Origin: a bacterium
GTDB lineage: Bacteria > CAIWAD01
Direction of reading: 5' to 3'
DNA: 9,302 bases
Assembly (NCBI GenBank): GCA_030429345.1
Contig: JAUIFJ010000061.1
Coordinates: 1-9,302, forward strand
This document shows, piece by piece, positions 1-9,302 of this stretch. The position numbers were made by a program, and so were the translations under genes. Below the pieces are notes generated by a model, which was not told where the DNA came from, did no database searches, and saw only the letters and a list, made by a program, of their open reading frames with translations. Position 1 is the stretch's first letter; the number at the start of each line of letters is the position of its first letter.

Positions 1-24
1 CCCGCGAAGGCGGGGGAATGACAG
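1..24. repeat. Right-end fragment of a palindromic repeat, cut by the window edge
   Basis: These bases match 386-409 exactly. They contain a GC-rich hairpin (stem CCCGC and GCGGG around loop GAAG, 1-14) followed by GGAATGACAGC, which is the typical right end of the element family. The stem is probably longer to the left, as in the 384-401 copy. This implies that the repeat array continues outside the window. Confidence 0.75.
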
Positions 25-374
25 CCGGGGGGCAGCCTGCGCGGTTGCCACTGTTCGTGTCATCCCGTGGCTTGACCACGGGATCCTCGTCCGCGTCGAA
101 GACCGGAGGGCCATCCGGATTGCGCGAGCCGACCGCGCCATTCCATTTCGCCATCCGGCCTGCGGCCCACTCAAAGGATTCCGTGGTCTCGCCACGGAAT
201 GACAGCAGGGGGGCAGCCCGCGCCGTTGCCACTGTTCGTGTCATCCCGTGGCTTGACCACGGGATCCTCCTCCGCGTCGAAGACCGGAGGGCCATCCGGA
301 TTGCGCGAGCCGACCGCGCCATTCCATTTCGCCATCCGGCCTGCGGCCCACTCGAAGGATTCCGTGGTCTCGCC
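23..374. repeat. 181-bp tandem duplication (two units)
   Basis: Unit 1 begins at 23 and unit 2 at 204, giving a period of 181 bp. Comparing 23-193 with 204-374 by eye I find five mismatches in 171 bp, about 97% identity. Each unit is a 36-bp GC-rich spacer followed by one palindrome-doublet element. Identity stops abruptly at 375, where unit 2 switches to a different hairpin arm. No gene is supported in 1-419: the open frames here merely translate the repeats, and because 181 is not a multiple of three the two units are read in different frames. Confidence 0.92.
59..203 (+). repeat. Palindrome-doublet element, copy A
   Basis: A 145-bp element bounded by inverted 28-bp arms at 59-86 and 176-203; the left arm and the reverse complement of the right arm match at 24 of 28 positions. 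Each arm is a hairpin with a 9-bp stem: ATCCCGTGG with CCACGGGAT around CTTGA (62-84), and ATTCCGTGG with CCACGGAAT around TCTCG (178-200). The ends read GTCAT and ATGAC. The interior has box 1 (TCCGCGTCGAAGACCGGAG, 90-108), a variable core, and box 2 (CCGGCCTGCGGCCCACTC). The design resembles REP/BIME doublets. I see no clear target-site duplication. Confidence 0.85.
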
Positions 375-407
375 TAAGGCCTGCCCCCGCGAAGGCGGGG
401 GAATGAC
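240..407 (+). repeat. Palindrome-doublet element, copy B with a swapped right arm
   Basis: Nearly identical to copy A through 374: left hairpin at 243-265, the same boxes and the same core. The right arm starts normally (GGATTCCGTGG at 357) but after CTCGCC at 374 the expected ACGGAATGAC is replaced by a linker and a GC-rich hairpin (384-401) before the standard GGAATGAC end. It is therefore a chimera of two arm types. It ends 12 bp from the panC stop codon. Confidence 0.82.
384..401. repeat. GC-rich hairpin arm 12-36 bp downstream of panC
   Basis: A perfect 7-bp stem, CCCCCGC (384-390) and GCGGGGG (395-401), closes a GAAG loop. Read in the panC direction (minus strand) the transcript would form this hairpin soon after the panC stop codon, but no U-run follows, so it is not a canonical intrinsic terminator. 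It could protect an mRNA 3' end as REP hairpins can; that is inference. Confidence 0.6.
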
Positions 408-419
408 AGCGGGGGGACA

Positions 420-1304
420 CTAGATCTCCACCTCCCGCCCCTTACGCAGGAAGACATTGTCGATCAGGCGGGCCTTGCCGGCCTTGACGGCGCCCAGCAG
501 CACCAGGTCCTGCGGCAGGGTTTCGCCTTCCTGCAGCTGCCGGAAGTCCTGCCAATCCACCAGTTCCAGGTACTGCGGCTGCAGCAGCTTTTCGGAGCGC
601 AGGCGCTGCCAGGCTTCCGCAAGCAGCTGCTGCGGATTCCCGCCAGCAGCGATTTCCCGGGCCAGGGCCTGCAGCGTCCGCGGCAGGGCGAGAGCCGCTT
701 CCCGTTCTTCCGGCTGCAGGTAGATGTTGCGCGAACTCATGGCCAGGCCGTCGGGATCGCGGACCAGCGGGCCCTCCTCGATCCGGTGCTCGAGCCCCAT
801 GTCGCGGGCCATGCGCCGGATCAGCCAGAGCTGCTGGGCGTCCTTGCGCCCGAAGATGGATACCTGGGGCCGGACCCAGTGGAAGAGCCGGTAGACCACG
901 GTCAGGACACCGCGGAAATGCCCCGGACGCCAGGGGCCGCAGGCCCGCTCGCCGGCCATCCCGGGGTGGATCCAGGTGTCGAAGCCCGGCGGGTAGACCT
1001 CTTCCGGGGCCGGCAGGAAAAGGGCATCCACGCCGACAGAGGCGCAGAGCTCCGCGTCCCGGACGGGGTCTCGCGGATAGGCCGCCAGGTCCTCCCCGTG
1101 CCCGAACTGGCTGGGGTTGACGAAGATCGAGACCAGCAGCGTATCACAGCGCTGCCGCAGGCGGCGCATCAGCTCCAGGTGCCCCTCGTGGAGAAAACCC
1201 ATGGTAGGCACCAGCCCGACCCGACGCCCCTCGGCCTCCCATTCCGCGCGTCTCCGGACGAGCTCGGCGACAGAGGCGATTTCCAGCAGCCTGTCCGGGC
1301 TCAC
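420..1304 (-). CDS. panC: Pantothenate synthetase (pantoate--beta-alanine ligase)
   Basis: Condenses (R)-pantoate with beta-alanine at the cost of ATP to AMP, giving pantothenate for coenzyme A; cytosolic. The 294-residue product has the family's nucleotidyltransferase signatures in order: PTMGFLHEGH (33-42, HxGH class), VSIFVNPSQFG (58-68), GHFRGVLTVV (128-137), FGRKDAQQL (151-159), RDPDGLAMSSRN (182-193, the KMSKS-like loop) and C-terminal QYLELVD and ARLIDN. The family usually has FGEKD; here Arg replaces Glu. Length is near the usual 280 or so. The GTG start (1302-1304) overlaps the panB stop in a GTGA, and no strong ribosome site precedes it, so translation is probably coupled to panB. 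Repeats begin 12 bp after the TAG stop. Confidence 0.97.
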   Translation of the reverse strand: MSPDRLLEIASVAELVRRRAEWEAEGRRVGLVPTMGFLHEGHLELMRRLRQRCDTLLVSIFVNPSQFGHGEDLAAYPRDPVRDAELCASVGVDALFLPAPEEVYPPGFDTWIHPGMAGERACGPWRPGHFRGVLTVVYRLFHWVRPQVSIFGRKDAQQLWLIRRMARDMGLEHRIEEGPLVRDPDGLAMSSRNIYLQPEEREAALALPRTLQALAREIAAGGNPQQLLAEAWQRLRSEKLLQPQYLELVDWQDFRQLQEGETLPQDLVLLGAVKAGKARLIDNVFLRKGREVEI

Positions 1305-2110
1305 TGCTCATCCGCGGAGGGGAAGTCGCCGGAACGGACAGCGGCGGCATAGTCGGAAACGGCCTGTCTCACGGCCTGGCCCAGCTCGGCGAAGCGTCTC
1401 ACGAATCGGGGCTGGAAGTCCTCGAAGAGGCCCAGCATGTCCGCGTTGACCAGCACCTGGCCATCGCAGTCGGCGCCGCTGCCGATGCCGATGGTCGGAA
1501 TCCGAAGCTCCCGTGTGATCCGCGCGGCCAGCTCCGGTTTCACCTTCTCCAGCACGATGGAGAAGCAGCCCGCCTCCTGCAGGGCCAGGGCGTCCTCCAG
1601 CAGGCGATCGGCCTCCGTTCGCCGTGTGCCACGGGTGCGATACCCGCCAAGGGAATGGATGCTCTGGGGAATCACGCCCAGGTGCCCCATGACGGGGATC
1701 CCCACATCCACCAGGCGGGCAATGGTCCTGCTGACGGCCTGGCCGCCCTCGATCTTGACCGCGGCGGCCCCGCCTTCGGCCAGCAGCCGTCCGGCGTTCC
1801 GCAGGGCCTCTTCCGTCGAGACCTGCGCGCTGAGGAAGGGCATGTCGGCGATGAGCAGGCTGTGACTCAATCCGCGGGAAACCATGCGCGTGTGATAGAC
1901 CATTTCGTCCAGGGTGACGGGAATCGTCGTCGGCAGGCCGCCCTGGACCATGCCCACGCTGTCGCCGACCAGGATGGCGTCCACCTCGCCGCCGTCCTGC
2001 AGACGGGCGAAGAGGGCGTCGTAGGCGGTCAGCATGACGATTTTTTCGCCCTTCTTCTTCCGCCGCGCGAAGAGCGTGATGCTGGCAGCGGAAGCGCTCT
2101 GCTTGCTCAT
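1301..2110 (-). CDS. panB: 3-methyl-2-oxobutanoate hydroxymethyltransferase
   Basis: Transfers a hydroxymethyl group from 5,10-methylene-tetrahydrofolate to 2-oxoisovalerate, giving ketopantoate, the first committed step to pantothenate. The 269-residue product is a TIM-barrel PanB throughout: TAYDALFA (28-35), LVGDSVGMV (47-55, metal ligand Asp50), IADMPF (87-92, Asp89), AVKIEGG (117-123, Lys119 and Glu121), PVMGHLGVIPQSI (139-151), LEKV (187-190, likely catalytic Glu188) and IPTIGIGSGADCDGQVLV (204-221). I chose the ATG at 2108-2110 because GAGGA lies 7 nt upstream, and the frame upstream to 2218 codes for a low-complexity, Pro/Arg-rich stretch unlike PanB. It overlaps panC by 4 nt. The ketopantoate reductase acting between PanB and PanC is not in the window. 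Confidence 0.97.
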   Translation of the reverse strand: MSKQSASAASITLFARRKKKGEKIVMLTAYDALFARLQDGGEVDAILVGDSVGMVQGGLPTTIPVTLDEMVYHTRMVSRGLSHSLLIADMPFLSAQVSTEEALRNAGRLLAEGGAAAVKIEGGQAVSRTIARLVDVGIPVMGHLGVIPQSIHSLGGYRTRGTRRTEADRLLEDALALQEAGCFSIVLEKVKPELAARITRELRIPTIGIGSGADCDGQVLVNADMLGLFEDFQPRFVRRFAELGQAVRQAVSDYAAAVRSGDFPSADEQ

Positions 2111-2221
2111 GGGGGGTTCCTCGGGAATCCGTGTGTCACAATCCATCAGCGGCCCTTCCGGGGCCGTCGGAACCGGCTCCCGCTTCGATGGGGGAAGCGG
2201 TGGCCGGGCCGGCCGCACAAG
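2111..2221 (-). other. Intergenic gap before panB with two stem-loops
   Basis: This is the only sizeable gap in the six-gene minus-strand run. It holds two perfect stems: CGGCCC (2150-2155) with GGGCCG (2161-2166), 5-nt loop; and CCGCTTC (2180-2186) with GAAGCGG (2194-2200), 7-nt loop. Neither is followed by a U-run on the transcribed strand. I see no convincing -35/-10 pair, so whether panBC has its own promoter is open. Confidence 0.45.
2118..2122 (-). promoter_or_regulatory. Ribosome binding site deciding the panB start
   Basis: On the minus strand GAGGA stands 7 nt before the ATG at 2110. It supports the 269-residue PanB over the in-frame extension that would begin at 2218. Confidence 0.75.
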
Positions 2222-4120
2222 CTACGATTTTCCTCCGGGCCGCCAGACCAGGCTCAGCTCGCCCCACAGGTTCCAGCTGGGCCGGCTTCCCAGGTCGACC
2301 TGCTCGTAATACAGGAAGCCGCCGGCCTCCAGGCTGCCGTGGAGCCAACGGATCTCCAGGTCCGGCCCCCTGCGGTAGAGTTCCCGTTCCAGGCTGCGCG
2401 CGCGGCTTCCGGCCTTGCTTTCCCACTGGTAGTCGCGCCGGTTGAGCCAGCGCAGGCCCGGGGCGATCCAGCCGCGGGCGTGGCACAGCCGCCAGGCCAG
2501 GCGGAATTCCAGTTCGCGGGCGGAATCGGAAAGCAGCTCCAGCTCGTCGCGGCGATCGAAACGGCCGCCGTCCTCCTCGAGCCAGCGCGAACGGATGCGC
2601 CATTCCTCCCCGCGCAGGACGGCAAGCCAGGGGCTGAGCAGTCCCGGCGCCTGCCAGCGCAGGTGCTCGTCCCATTGCCAGCGGCGCTGGATCGTGCTGC
2701 GCGGGTCCTGGGCGCTCTCGTATTCGTAGAGCCGGAAGGTGACGCCGGTGCGCGCCTCGCCTTCCAGCAGCAGGCCGGGCGCGGGGCGCAGGACATGCCC
2801 CACGGCCACCTGGAGGCGCCTCAGCTCGTGGTTGCCCGCGCTGCGATCGGCCTGCAGGTGATTTTCGCCCTGGCGGCTGAGCAGCAACGACAGGTCCAGG
2901 TCCGCCCAGGAACGCAGACGATGCCGCCAGCCGCCTTCCACCAGAAGCGAGAGCCGGTCCTGGTCCTGGCGGTCCCGGGCCAGTCCCTCGCGATCCACCT
3001 CTGCGTCCCGCCGGCGCATTTCCAGTCGCGGCACCAGGAAGAGACTGTCGCGGGGCAGATCGGACCAGAAACGCAGCTGCAGGCGGTTGCTCTGGACCCG
3101 GCTCAGGTTGTTCTCGCCGATGGCGCCCAGGGTGCGGTAGCGGCTGTCCAGCCGCTGGCGGCTGAGGGCGATCTGCCCCTCGGCCTGAAGGCGGCCCAGC
3201 TGCAGCAGATGCTCCAGGCTGCCTTCGACGCCCAGGTCCCGGTAGCGGCTGGAACGGGCCGTTCCGCTGGTGGCGGCGCTCAGCGCCAGCGAATCCCTGC
3301 GCCAGGGGTCCCGCTGGACCTTCAGGTTCCAGGCCTCGAAACGCAGGCGGCTGCGCCCCATGGCGGCGAAGTCGCTGCTCAGGTGATTGGCCAGGCGCAG
3401 GCCGGATTCGCTGCGCGCCTCGAGCAGGCCGGCCCGTTCGTCCAGGTAGAAGTCCTGCCAGTCGCTCGTATACGCCAGCTCGAGACGATTGCTGGTCTGG
3501 CCCTCGAAACGGGTCTGCCAGCTGCTGCCCAGCTCCACGTGGCGCTGCCGCCGGTCGTCCAGGTTGAGGGCCTCTCCGCGGATACTCGCCTGCCAGCTGT
3601 TGCCCGCCGCGCTGCCGCGTGATGCGAGGCGCGCGACCCCCCGCGGCCCTGCATCACGGATCCCGGCGCGGAAGTCGGATGCTCCGCCGGCCAGCAGGGA
3701 CAGCCGCCCCTTGAGCGCCGGAAGGGGCAGGGTGGCGCCGGCGCCGATGTCGGCCTTCAGGCTGCGGCGACGGAGACGTCCGCCCGTATACTCTTCCACG
3801 TAGACCTGTTCGCCGCCTTCGAGCAGCCAGCGCCGCCGCGAGTCCGCGCGCCCGTCCAGGGGCCGGCTCCAGGCCAGCTCGAGCTGCTGGCCGAGGCGCC
3901 GCGAATCGCGGTTGTGCGCGCGAAAGCCGCGCCGCCAGTGGCTGTCCAGTGTGATAAGCAGGCTGTCCGAGCCGATCCGCCCGGACCAGTGCAGCTTTTG
4001 TGTGGCATTGTGGAACTCGAGTCCGCGGTTGAGTCCCAGCTCCAGGTCCGGCAGGACCGCCGCCTCGCCGCGAGCGGCGGGGAACAGAAGCAGGGAACAC
4101 AAGAGCAGGACGGATCTCAT
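2222..4120 (-). CDS. Unrecognised secreted, probably outer-membrane beta-barrel protein
   Basis: I do not recognise a family. The 632-residue product starts with MRSVLLLCSLLLFPAARGEA, a typical signal peptide with likely cleavage near residue 21. The rest has almost no long hydrophobic stretch. It is dominated by short alternating polar/apolar segments rich in Arg, Leu, Trp, Tyr and Asp/Glu (for example RLQVAVGHVL, GLLLEGEARTGVTFRLYEYE, AGGFLYYEQVDL), as expected for amphipathic strands of an outer-membrane barrel. The C-terminus (LWGELSLVWRPGGKS) has a strand-like tail but not a textbook terminal aromatic. The ATG at 4118-4120 overlaps the DUF502 stop in an ATGA, with AGGA 3 nt upstream, which supports a real co-translated gene. 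The barrel assignment is inference from composition; a soluble periplasmic beta-rich protein is the alternative. Confidence 0.85.
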   Translation of the reverse strand: MRSVLLLCSLLLFPAARGEAAVLPDLELGLNRGLEFHNATQKLHWSGRIGSDSLLITLDSHWRRGFRAHNRDSRRLGQQLELAWSRPLDGRADSRRRWLLEGGEQVYVEEYTGGRLRRRSLKADIGAGATLPLPALKGRLSLLAGGASDFRAGIRDAGPRGVARLASRGSAAGNSWQASIRGEALNLDDRRQRHVELGSSWQTRFEGQTSNRLELAYTSDWQDFYLDERAGLLEARSESGLRLANHLSSDFAAMGRSRLRFEAWNLKVQRDPWRRDSLALSAATSGTARSSRYRDLGVEGSLEHLLQLGRLQAEGQIALSRQRLDSRYRTLGAIGENNLSRVQSNRLQLRFWSDLPRDSLFLVPRLEMRRRDAEVDREGLARDRQDQDRLSLLVEGGWRHRLRSWADLDLSLLLSRQGENHLQADRSAGNHELRRLQVAVGHVLRPAPGLLLEGEARTGVTFRLYEYESAQDPRSTIQRRWQWDEHLRWQAPGLLSPWLAVLRGEEWRIRSRWLEEDGGRFDRRDELELLSDSARELEFRLAWRLCHARGWIAPGLRWLNRRDYQWESKAGSRARSLERELYRRGPDLEIRWLHGSLEAGGFLYYEQVDLGSRPSWNLWGELSLVWRPGGKS

Positions 4121-4785
4121 GAGTCCTGGCCGAGGCTCCGTTCCGCTTCGGTGGCCGGCTTCCGCGCGGTACCGTCCACTTCCGGATTGTGCACGCCGGC
4201 CGAGATGACCAGCTTGAGCGCCTCTTCGACGGTCAGGTTGAGGTAGATCACCTCGTCGCGGGGCAGGAAGATCAGCATGCCGCTGGTCGGGTTGGGCGTG
4301 GTCGGCACGAAGATCGAGATCAGTTCGCGTCCCACGTGCTCGGGAATCTCCCCTTCCGTGCGACGGGTGGCGAAACCGACGGACCAGATGCCGAGGCGCG
4401 GGTACTGGATCAGCACCGCGTGGCGGAAGAGTTCCTTGTTGTCGCTGAGCAGGCTTTCGAGGATCTGGCGAATGGCGAGCACCAGCTTGCTCAGGAAGGG
4501 GATGCGGTTGAGCATCGCCTGGCCCAGGTCGATCAGCTTGCGCCCCAGGTAGAGGCGGGCCAGGGCGCCGACGAAGAAGATCAGGATGATCAGGACCAGC
4601 AGGCCCAGGCCGGGAATGTAGATGCCGACGTGCTTGTCCAGCAGCGGACGCAGCACGGGCTGCAGCAGGTTGTCGAGCAGCCGGAAGAGCCGATAGAGGA
4701 TGAAGACGCCCAGCGCCACCGGCGTGATCGTCAGGATGCCGGTAATGAAAACGCGCCTCAGGCCCGCGACGCCGCCCTTGCTCAC
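4117..4785 (-). CDS. DUF502 (LIKE-COV) family inner-membrane protein
   Basis: A 222-residue member of DUF502, a family of unknown function found in bacteria and, as the COV proteins, in plants. It has two transmembrane helices (about 12-34 and 57-79), with PGLG (58-61) at the start of the second. The soluble C-terminal domain carries family hallmarks: NRIPFLSKLV (93-102), LIQYPRLGIWSVGFAT (125-140), FVPTTPNPTSGML (159-171) and EEALKLVISAG (187-197). The GTG start (4783-4785) has a strong AAGGAG 7 nt upstream (4793-4798) and overlaps the ftsB stop in a GTGA. The stop overlaps the barrel gene start in an ATGA. The context suggests a cell-envelope role, which is inference. Confidence 0.93.
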   Translation of the reverse strand: MSKGGVAGLRRVFITGILTITPVALGVFILYRLFRLLDNLLQPVLRPLLDKHVGIYIPGLGLLVLIILIFFVGALARLYLGRKLIDLGQAMLNRIPFLSKLVLAIRQILESLLSDNKELFRHAVLIQYPRLGIWSVGFATRRTEGEIPEHVGRELISIFVPTTPNPTSGMLIFLPRDEVIYLNLTVEEALKLVISAGVHNPEVDGTARKPATEAERSLGQDS

Positions 4786-5117
4786 TCCGCTGCTCCTTCC
4801 GTGGGATCCTGTTCCGTTTTCAGGCCTTCCAGGCTGTCGGCTTCCGTGGCCAGCAGGTAGACGCGCTCTCCGGGACGGATCATGCCCTGGGCCCGCGCCT
4901 CCTGCTCCAGGCGATCCGGGTCATTGGCGCGAAGGCGTGACACATCCTCCCGCAGGAAGGCGTTCTCCTCCTCCAGCTCCTGCTCGAGGGCGCGCAGGGA
5001 ATCCAGCCGCGCGTGATACTCGCGCTGCTCGAACAGCCCCCCGTCGAAGAGCGCCAGAGCGGCAAGGAGTCCCGCGAGCGGGATCCACAGCCAGCGACTC
5101 TTCCACGGGGAGCTCAT
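4782..5117 (-). CDS. ftsB: FtsB/DivIC-type septum formation initiator
   Basis: A small single-pass division protein, 111 residues, of the FtsB/DivIC family, which with FtsL and FtsQ forms the septal complex that helps activate cell-wall synthesis. It has a short cytoplasmic N-terminus, one membrane helix (about 9-27), a periplasmic coiled coil rich in Glu, Leu and Arg (about 31-65), then the family's diagnostic DPDRLEQEAR (66-75) and GMIRPGERVYLL (78-89). The Asp/Glu-rich tail after residue 90 is variable in the family. The ATG (5115-5117) follows the eno stop by 4 nt, and its GGAAG ribosome site (5125-5129) lies inside the end of eno. The eno-ftsB neighbourhood is known from several Gram-negative bacteria such as Pseudomonas. 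Whether to call it FtsB or DivIC depends on lineage. Confidence 0.93.
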   Translation of the reverse strand: MSSPWKSRWLWIPLAGLLAALALFDGGLFEQREYHARLDSLRALEQELEEENAFLREDVSRLRANDPDRLEQEARAQGMIRPGERVYLLATEADSLEGLKTEQDPTEGAAE

Positions 5118-5121
5118 GACG

Positions 5122-6435
<1,314 letters not shown>

Positions 6436-6485
6436 TCAATCCACAGATCGATTCGTCCAGTCGGCCAAGGTACGATTGCAGGAGT

Positions 6486-6618
6486 GTCATTCCGTGGCTT
6501 GCCCACGGAATCCTTCGAGTAGGCCGCAGGCCGGAGGGCTCCTGTCAGGGATTCTGGTAGTTGCAGCACTCCGGTCTTCGACGCGGATCAGGATCCCGTG
6601 GGCAAGCCACGGGATGAC
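6486..6618 (-). repeat. Palindrome-doublet element, copy C (inverted orientation)
   Basis: A 133-bp element in the opposite orientation to copies A, B and D. Arms at 6486-6513 and 6591-6618 run from GTCATTCC to GGGATGAC. The left hairpin is ATTCCGTGG and CCACGGAAT around CTTGC (6489-6511); the right is ATCCCGTGG and CCACGGGAT around GCAAG. Read on the minus strand, its 77-bp interior matches copy D with five differences by eye, including a core starting TGCTGCAACTACCAG absent from A and B. It lies 46 bp past the stop of the 102-aa gene and 75 bp before the eno ATG, so it may affect transcription between them. No U-run follows either hairpin. Confidence 0.88.
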
Positions 6619-6664
6619 TGGCATGGGTGGCGGGATGGCAAGTCGTGAGATAGGTACTGAGTAG

Positions 6665-6973
6665 CTAGTTCGCCGCTTCGGGATCCGGGCGCTTGAGGAT
6701 CATGACCGTGGCGCCTCCGCAGGGACCGATGGCGCAGACCATCCAGCCTTCGTGCTCGCGCTGGTGGAGGATCTTCTTCAGGGTGTCGTCCTTGCGCCCG
6801 GTGACGGCGACCACCTGGTGGTTCCACTTGCGGCCGTCCTTGTAGAGGAACAGCCGCTGGCCGACGATCTCTCCCATGCCGACGACACTGAAGCCCGCCG
6901 CTTCCTGTTGCTCGAGCAGGGTCTCGAGGGTTTCCCGGTTGGAGAGCTGCGGATCCAGGATGGCATGCTTCAT
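6665..6973 (-). CDS. Small protein of two tandem 49-residue repeats (DUF4177-like halves?)
   Basis: I do not recognise it with certainty. The 102-residue product has no signal peptide or membrane helix. It is an internal duplication: residues 15-48 and 64-97 align without gaps at an offset of 49 with about 10 of 34 identical, including TL, L, Q-x-E, G, V and two further Gly (compare LLEQQEAAGFSVVGMG with ILHQREHEGWMVCAIG). His3/His52 and hydrophobic strands (AILD, QVVAV) extend the match towards the N-terminus. Each half reads as strand-helix-strand-strand. The EGWxV turn followed by a strand ending LKRP resembles small DUF4177-type domains, but that is inference. The ATG (6971-6973) has AAGGA 8 nt upstream. 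It lies upstream of eno on the same strand and diverges from purB. Confidence 0.8.
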   Translation of the reverse strand: MKHAILDPQLSNRETLETLLEQQEAAGFSVVGMGEIVGQRLFLYKDGRKWNHQVVAVTGRKDDTLKKILHQREHEGWMVCAIGPCGGATVMILKRPDPEAAN

Positions 6974-7094
6974 GGGTTTCGTCCTTGCTGGCCCCGGCGC
7001 TGCGGAGCGTTGCTGAATGGTGTGCCGGCGATGTTCTTATCGGCGGATCGGGGGGGGTGATTGAATTATGGGGGGCAATACGCCTCCCACAGGC
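6974..7094. other. Leader and left part of the 504-bp divergent intergenic region
   Basis: This holds the AAGGA ribosome site (6982-6986, minus strand) of the 102-aa gene and an AT-richer patch next to G-runs. On the minus strand a CATAAT hexamer (7065-7070) resembles a -10 box, but I find no matching -35, so no promoter is called. No open frame here looks coding. Confidence 0.35.
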
Positions 7095-7206
7095 TGTCAT
7101 TCCGCGGCGTAGCCGTCCTCTCTGTTATTCCGCGGCGTAGCCATCCTCGGTGTCATCGCGTGGCTTGACCATCCTCGGTGTCATCGCGTGGCTTGACCAC
7201 GGGATC
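7095..7206 (+). repeat. Four tandem 28-bp arm-like units
   Basis: Units start at 7095, 7123, 7151 and 7179, each beginning TGTCAT or TGTTAT. Units 1 and 2 continue TCCGCGGCGTAGCC; units 3 and 4 continue CGCGTGGCTTGACCA. Units 1-3 end in a variant of GTCCTCTC or ATCCTCGG instead of the second stem half. Unit 4 runs on into the complete left arm of copy D. The period equals the arm length of the element, so the array appears to be an amplification of truncated arms. There are no spacers. Confidence 0.85.
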
Positions 7207-7312
7207 CTGATCCGCGTCGAAGACCGGAGTGCTGCAACTACCAGGATCCATGAAAAGAGCCCTCCGGCCTGCGGCCCACTCGAAGGATTCCGCGGTCAAG
7301 CCGCGGAAAGAC
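7180..7312 (+). repeat. Palindrome-doublet element, copy D
   Basis: A 133-bp element in the same orientation as A and B, with arms at 7180-7207 and 7285-7312. The right hairpin is TTCCGCGG and CCGCGGAA around TCAAG (7288-7308), where both stem halves differ from the CCGTGG type in a way that keeps pairing. The left arm (GTCATCGCGTGG) has one stem mismatch. Box 1 (TCCGCGTCGAAGACCGGAG) and box 2 (CCGGCCTGCGGCCCACTCG) are intact, and the core matches copy C. The right end reads AAAGAC rather than AATGAC. Confidence 0.87.
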
Positions 7313-7477
7313 AGCGGTGGGGGGTGGGACTCACAGCGGGGGTCACGGTATGACAGCGGGGGTGGGCGGCGGGGTGTCATCGGTAGGGAACCGCGGAAGG
7401 ACAGCGGAGCAAACCTTGGGCGAGCGGTCTTCGAGAAATACCTTGCCCCGCCTGTTCAAAAGCACCCGGAGAACCCG
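7313..7477 (+). other. G-rich tail repeats and leader of purB
   Basis: ACAGCGG occurs at 7311, 7333, 7353 and 7401, three times followed by runs of G, echoing the ATGACAGC-plus-G tail seen after the right arms at 18-32 and 403-416. The strand is purine-skewed with several G-runs (7317-7375). From about 7403 the sequence is ordinary leader. GGAG at 7468-7471 stands 6 nt before the purB ATG. A TTGGGC (7416) followed 16 nt later by ATACCT is too weak to call as a promoter. Confidence 0.45.
7376..7402 (+). repeat. Decayed solo arm of the palindromic repeat
   Basis: A 27-bp stretch begins GTCAT and ends CCGCGGAAGGAC, matching the end of copy D's right arm (CCGCGGAAAGAC) at 11 of 12 positions. A short stem CGGT/ACCG with loop AGGGA remains. 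No partner arm or boxes are present, so it is a solo or degraded arm. Confidence 0.6.
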
Positions 7478-8965: not shown

Positions 8966-9302
8966 CTATTCCTCCAATTCTCCGTTGATGATGCGAACGA
9001 TGCCGTTCTTCAGTACTGTCTCGCCGAAGTTGAGCAGATAGCCGAGTTTCAGGCCGCTGAACCGAAGATAGGTCAATAGTTGACGCTTGTGGCTCGCGTT
9101 CAGCTGCTCGACGGCTTTCAACTCGACAATGACCTTGCCTGCTACAACCAGATCCGCACGAAAACCGGCTTCGATCCTGACTCCGTCGATTCGTCCGTCT
9201 ACGGGTACTTGCCGTTCAAAGGGAACGCCATACCTCGATAGTCGAACTGCCAACGCCTTCTCGTAAACAGACTCCAGCAAGCCAGGCCCTGTAGCACGAT
9301 GC
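8966..9302 (-). CDS. GxxExxY family protein, 5' end outside the window
   Basis: A partial gene. The visible reading frame runs to the window edge (codons from 9301 on the minus strand) and reads HRATGPGLLESVYEKAL, containing the family-defining GLLESVY. The family is related to PD-(D/E)XK nucleases, and the core is visible as RADLVVAGKVIVELKA: Asp then Glu-x-Lys. Further family features are HKRQLLTYLRFSG, LGYLLNFG and LKNGIVRIING near the C-terminus. The TTG at 9278-9280 is not the start, because the conserved HRxxGPG segment lies upstream of it; full members are about 120-130 residues, so only some 10-20 are missing. The function is unknown; nuclease activity is inferred. It ends with TAG 57 bp from the purB stop, convergently. 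Confidence 0.93.
   Translation of the reverse strand, partial: HRATGPGLLESVYEKALAVRLSRYGVPFERQVPVDGRIDGVRIEAGFRADLVVAGKVIVELKAVEQLNASHKRQLLTYLRFSGLKLGYLLNFGETVLKNGIVRIINGELEE

Follow-up and report, generated by a model that had tools for sequence, protein, structure and literature searches.

The repeats described here come closest to the CGTC-tagged REPs, a superfamily which includes dRS3 of Neisseria and RPE-4 and RPE-6 of Rickettsia (Di Nocera et al., 2013, PMC3733652). No transposase is known for these REPs; that study leaves open which enzyme, if any, mobilises them, and a flanked RAYT is described there as equally lacking in other CGTC genomes (Di Nocera et al., 2013, PMC3733652). REPs may also serve as targets of other elements, for which ISRm22, an insertion sequence of the IS4 family, provides the precedent (PMC1525189). 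The DNA studied here, the window, is a stretch of 9,302 nucleotides taken at its full length, and it was analysed along with the assembly of its host. In work published in 2025, GIY-YIG nucleases named Ssn are reported to cut single-stranded DNA at a Neisseria repeat, with effects on transformation. From sequence comparison we consider it rather probable that the elements of the window are miniature, non-autonomous derivatives of a hairpin-bounded GIY-YIG cassette and are mobilised via its nuclease.

The repeats of the window

The gene order of the window, as read from the translations, is panC, panB, a large ORF, a DUF502-like gene, a septum-formation-like gene, eno, a 102-aa ORF, purB and the end of a GxxExxY gene. 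The domain search returned no match for the 102-aa ORF between eno and purB. It identified the GxxExxY (PD-(D/E)XK) nuclease gene at 8966-9280, at the contig end. An Rfam search gave no match, and a tRNA search found none. The repeat features are as follows.

1 to 25, minus strand: end of a further arm
58 to 204: copy 1, a head-to-head dimer of half-units 58-113 (plus) and 148-204 (minus)
239 to 408: copy 2, with half-unit 239-294 (plus) and a right half from 329, its arm swapped for another hairpin at about 379-407
6485 to 6619: copy 3, in the spacer between eno and the 102-aa ORF, a head-to-head dimer of half-units 6485-6541 (plus) and 6564-6619 (minus)
about 7095 to 7178, plus strand: a tandem run of decayed, incomplete arm units just before copy 4
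7179 to 7313: copy 4, in the spacer between the 102-aa ORF and purB, a head-to-head dimer of half-units 7179-7234 (plus) and 7257-7313 (minus)

The first-pass annotation had placed four copies at 59-203, 240-407, 6486-6618 and 7180-7312, and all of them are present, in both orientations and between genes. The window copies match the genome at E = 1e-66 to 2e-19, which excludes chance, and copies 3 and 4 form inverted repeats with 92% identity over 134 nt. The arm end at 1-25 indicates that the contig probably starts inside an array. The inverted arms that had been described as common to the copies are real, except that copy 2 is without a right arm of its own and that copy 4 has GTCTT in its right arm; the left arm of copy 4 contains GTCATCGCG. 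In copy 2, GGATTCCGTGGTCTCGCC is followed by a different hairpin, whose loop is 4 nt long (GCCTGCCCCCGCGAAGGCGGGGGAATGACA, about 379-407). A right-arm replacement of this type recurs at C41:21641-21720, and either the array was copied or the arms were exchanged.

The repeat unit and its distribution

With a single copy as the query, 79 matches were found in the whole assembly (4.24 Mb in 92 contigs, which break in repeat arrays). Sixty-four distinct half-units were aligned, and the covariance model then used to search the host genome returned 103 hits at E<=0.01, of which 98 form 48 clusters. Among the 48 close neighbours in this set of 98, 30 are head-to-head pairs with their tags outward (110-212 bp, median 141) versus 7, 5 and 6 for the three other arrangements, which implies that the unit is the half and that the composite of 133-168 bp recognised earlier is a head-to-head dimer. 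Tandem arrays of units are also present, and single halves are common genome-wide. The earlier annotation would have been refuted had the genome held its four copies only; the search gives 98-103 half-units at about 48 places, well beyond these.

The half-unit is about 56 nt long and combines a TGTC tag and a hairpin (stem of 9 bp, loop of 5 nt) with a covarying mini-hairpin; its consensus over the 64 aligned half-units is TGTCATCCCGYGGCTTGACCRCGGGATCCT-NN-TCCGCGTCGCAGACCGGAG. Almost all of the 64 have TGTC or CGTC as their tag, the 9-bp stem is paired in 97.6% of cells with compensatory changes at two pairs, the loop of the arm hairpin is CTTGA and variants of it, and the unpaired tail keeps CC followed mostly by T. 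The mini-hairpin (GTC-GCA-GAC or GCC-GCA-GGC, 3 bp) has compensatory changes at one pair. An outer 4-bp extension of the mini-hairpin, with just 68% of cells paired, is not claimed. The two conserved internal boxes of the earlier description are present, but they are really the inner parts of the 56-nt half-unit with its 3-bp mini-hairpin.

The family is specific to the lineage of the host, as far as the four near relatives in the genome panel can tell: in the same run of the covariance model, three genomes of the same family gave 0, 0 and 4 hits versus 93 for the host. The order of eno, the 102-aa ORF and purB is kept in three sister genomes, and their spacers are free of elements. The comparison of insertion sites with relatives that had been proposed has been answered by absence at the orthologous place in three genomes, but not by base-precise empty sites, the sister spacers being too diverged to align. 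What stands of the earlier picture is a REP/BIME-like hairpin doublet, high in copy number, lineage-specific, intergenic in the window and present in both orientations, and probably a non-autonomous element; the RAYT partner assigned to it does not stand.

GIY-YIG genes between the hairpins

Three GIY-YIG matches were found in the host genome, namely two small proteins and a 613-aa frame taken as UvrC. The gene for one small protein (C19, 728-1033) lies between window-family units at 675-730 (plus) and 1135-1190 (minus), which are head-to-head. The second (C21:13304-13591, L067) lies between arrays of another CGTC-like family, AGTCGCCCCCGCGAAGGCGGGGGCC, whose hairpins are likewise head-to-head around the gene, with 29 copies at <=2 mismatches in the host genome. 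The small protein matches Pfam PF01541 (E = 2.5e-12), residues Y7, Y18, R28, H32, E65 and N84 are invariant in six aligned relatives, and the nearest solved relatives are the UPF0213 structures 1ZG2 and 1YWL (E = 3.5e-6 and 3.4e-5). UPF0213 proteins have no known link to repeats; the host protein is probably of the Ssn kind. Elsewhere on C19, a short-period tandem repeat (3700-4299, L060), with frames such as GTVPGTVPGTVP, runs off the contig end.

The enzyme and the repeats occur together in the same genomes. In a set of 290 genomes, which shared descent keeps from being independent although almost every one represents a different family, at least 20 matches to GTCATYCCSN{8,12}SGGRATCC were present in 16 of the 42 genomes with the enzyme at E<=1e-25 versus 3 of 248 (Fisher P = 1.6e-12), and a backwards-read control pattern gave zero matches. 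There are CGTC-rich genomes outside this association: G022 (97 pattern matches) has UvrC only among GIY-YIG proteins, and in G098 (37 pattern matches) a close relative of the enzyme was not found.

The genes and the hairpins are also physically linked. Around 39 gene copies, mostly closer relatives of the enzyme, tag plus hairpin occurs 2.73 times per kb up to about 300 bp from the gene versus 0.20 times per kb beyond, and the perfect-hairpin finder detected a hairpin nearby in 28 of the 39, on both sides in 17 and head-to-head in 14. The same test succeeded for only 2 of 20 divergent gene copies. By inspection, several divergent loci are flanked on both sides by inverted, bulged repeats of the GTCATTGCGAG or GTCATTCTGAG type, and the linkage test was therefore repeated, this time with GTCAT alone as the criterion and shifted positions as controls. 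GTCAT upstream together with ATGAC downstream brackets 32 of 50 GIY-YIG genes (the top matches rather than a random selection) versus 8 of 193 shifted positions; the resulting P = 7e-20 is generous, as the shifted controls lie partly in coding sequence and reuse the same genes at several shifts, and the bracket was defined after part of the same data had been seen, a bias which the controls limit and do not remove. The same bracket was found at 0 of 10 RAYT genes and 0 of 7 UvrC genes. A scan of a named genome collection yielded eight named proteobacterial loci (six from Sphingomonas, one from Caulobacteraceae and one unplaced), of which five have a CGTC dimer immediately 5' to the gene and one has a single hairpin; at the Sphingomonas loci the dimer is mostly on one side only.

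Matching of repeat types and borders of the cassettes

Repeat types are distributed on the enzyme tree, itself poorly resolved (95 columns), with 14 changes versus 27.9 when shuffled, and 0 of 200 shuffles were as low. Two enzymes in one genome can have different repeat types (G024 and G058), which argues that the type tracks the enzyme rather than the genome. Paralogous cassettes within one genome were also compared. In G007 and G109 the tag is precisely where their homology begins, and in G028 homology ends at GGAATGAC, the outer flanks being unrelated in each; the borders are less exact in G188 and G056, and in G191 homology continues past the tag. Genome G047, with 96 pattern matches that include arms identical to those of the window, carries a GIY-YIG remnant between head-to-head arms, and this decayed cassette is plausibly an intermediate on the way to a dimer without a gene. 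In G047 the GIY-YIG gene that is better preserved (C96) has GTCATTGCGAG-type repeats instead.

Proposed origin and alternatives

In the cassette reading, each half of a dimer would be a cassette end, the full cassette consisting of a TGTCAT hairpin with its mini-hairpin, the GIY-YIG gene and an inverted copy of that end. The encoded protein, probably an Ssn-type GIY-YIG nuclease, would recognise its own hairpin in single-stranded form, on the replication lagging strand or in DNA taken up, and would cut at or near the TGTC tag, after which host repair or recombination would spread the cassette and, in trans, the miniature dimers. The comparison, which is one of sequences throughout, shows the anatomy of the cassette, its co-distribution and linkage, the match of type and enzyme, the tag-bounded paralogues and the decayed cassette of G047; the recognition and cutting of single-stranded DNA, and cutting as the driver of copying, we infer. 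Enzyme gene, bounding hairpins and short dimers together can be read as the RAYT-REP logic with a nuclease replacing the transposase. It counts against mobilisation that, to our knowledge, GIY-YIG enzymes have no strand-transfer or copying chemistry. A further point against is that the gene might have entered a pre-existing dimer.

Among the other explanations, the one which survives best, though we think it unlikely, is that the repeats are immobile or extinct and play a role for the host, in transcription end, mRNA stability or supercoiling, the GIY-YIG enzyme merely cutting there, for example in controlling DNA uptake or recombination. Such a role agrees with the compensatory changes that preserve both hairpins and with Ssn, which is reported to act in transformation and not in transposition. 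However, the lineage-specific amplification to about 100 units looks like spread, as do the tag-bounded paralogous cassettes and the tandem arrays.

Movement by RAYT was the expectation of the first-pass annotation: a Y1 (HUH) transposase of the host would recognise and move the hairpins, as TnpA-REP does for GTAG REPs. The host genome has ten Y1_Tnp genes and the dimers resemble REPINs in anatomy, but arms of the window family lie within 1.5 kb of 0 of the 10 and CGTC-REP hairpins within 700 bp of 0 of the 10, the tag is TGTC or CGTC and not GTAG, and the gene that does lie between the arms encodes a small GIY-YIG protein. The search for a flanked Y1 gene led instead to a RAYT gene (C46:127112-127456, L035) with its expected partner, GTAG hairpins (GGTAGCTGCGGCCGACAGCCCGCAGCGG), an ordinary RAYT-GTAG pairing that serves as an internal contrast in the host genome. 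Other CGTC genomes likewise have no flanked RAYT (Di Nocera et al., 2013, PMC3733652), which points in this direction too. With none of the ten genes bracketed and a tag of another kind, RAYT was rejected as the partner, and we regard this explanation as very improbable.

An IS4-like element with ends AACCGGACACTAGTG, nearest to ISPosp4 among annotated relatives, is the sole insertion sequence tied to the repeats. It has six ends in the assembly, at the ends of contigs C16, C19, C40, C56, C58 and C65 (L061-L066), and 6 of 6 abut the GG-loop-CC of window-family hairpins; as judged across contigs from matching duplications of 9 bp (GGTCAAGCC or GGTCCCGCC), the six ends belong to three insertions. 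That the repeats are MITEs of an ordinary DDE insertion sequence, as a length of 110-212 bp and inverted ends might suggest, is scarcely credible, since this element is an invader inside the hairpin tip whose ends differ from the arm in question (TGTCATCCCG), and since single halves are common.

The GIY-YIG cassette may have a wider reach. We suggest tentatively, and with rather less confidence than for the window itself, that TGTCAT-tagged palindromes across bacteria (perfect CGTC hairpins, GTCATTGCGAG and GTCATTCTGAG) could be miniatures of one widespread selfish GIY-YIG cassette which spreads by cutting single-stranded DNA without a transposase. The comparison suggests a concrete candidate enzyme for mobilising CGTC REPs, including dRS3 of Neisseria and the RPEs of Rickettsia. 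Enzymes and hairpins come in matched pairs, with two different pairs in some genomes, so that specificity is directly testable in vitro. If the Ssn work already covers the link, the value of the present analysis lies in the other repeat types and in the tag-bounded cassettes.

Comparison with known systems

Judged by sequence features, the window repeats form a new family within the CGTC-tagged REP superfamily, which gives a place to the distinct family suspected earlier. Host repeats and superfamily have in common the CGTC/TGTC tag, a 9-bp stem starting with AT, a 5-nt loop, a CC tail, a predominance of head-to-head dimers and no flanked RAYT; the stem described for the superfamily (8-9 bp, its first pairs A-T and T-A) and its loop of 4-5 nt are both found in the host family. 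The tail is mostly CCA in the superfamily and mostly CCT in the host, and the host unit, unlike that of the superfamily, is extended to about 56 nt by the covarying mini-hairpin. The link to a GIY-YIG gene, seen for the host family, is not reported in the accessible sections of that paper (Di Nocera et al., 2013, PMC3733652).

Like ISRm22, the IS4-like element of the host inserts only into hairpins (three insertions, six ends), a comparison which concerns an invader of the repeats and not their mobiliser. As reported for Ssn, many copies of one repeat accompany a small GIY-YIG protein whose key residues are conserved; the repeat and the host differ, and the nuclease role of the host protein is predicted. 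The RAYT and GTAG REP systems (REPIN, REPtron) likewise have hairpins that bracket an enzyme gene and many short gene-free dimers, whereas the tag in the host is TGTC instead of GTAG and its nuclease is of another fold.
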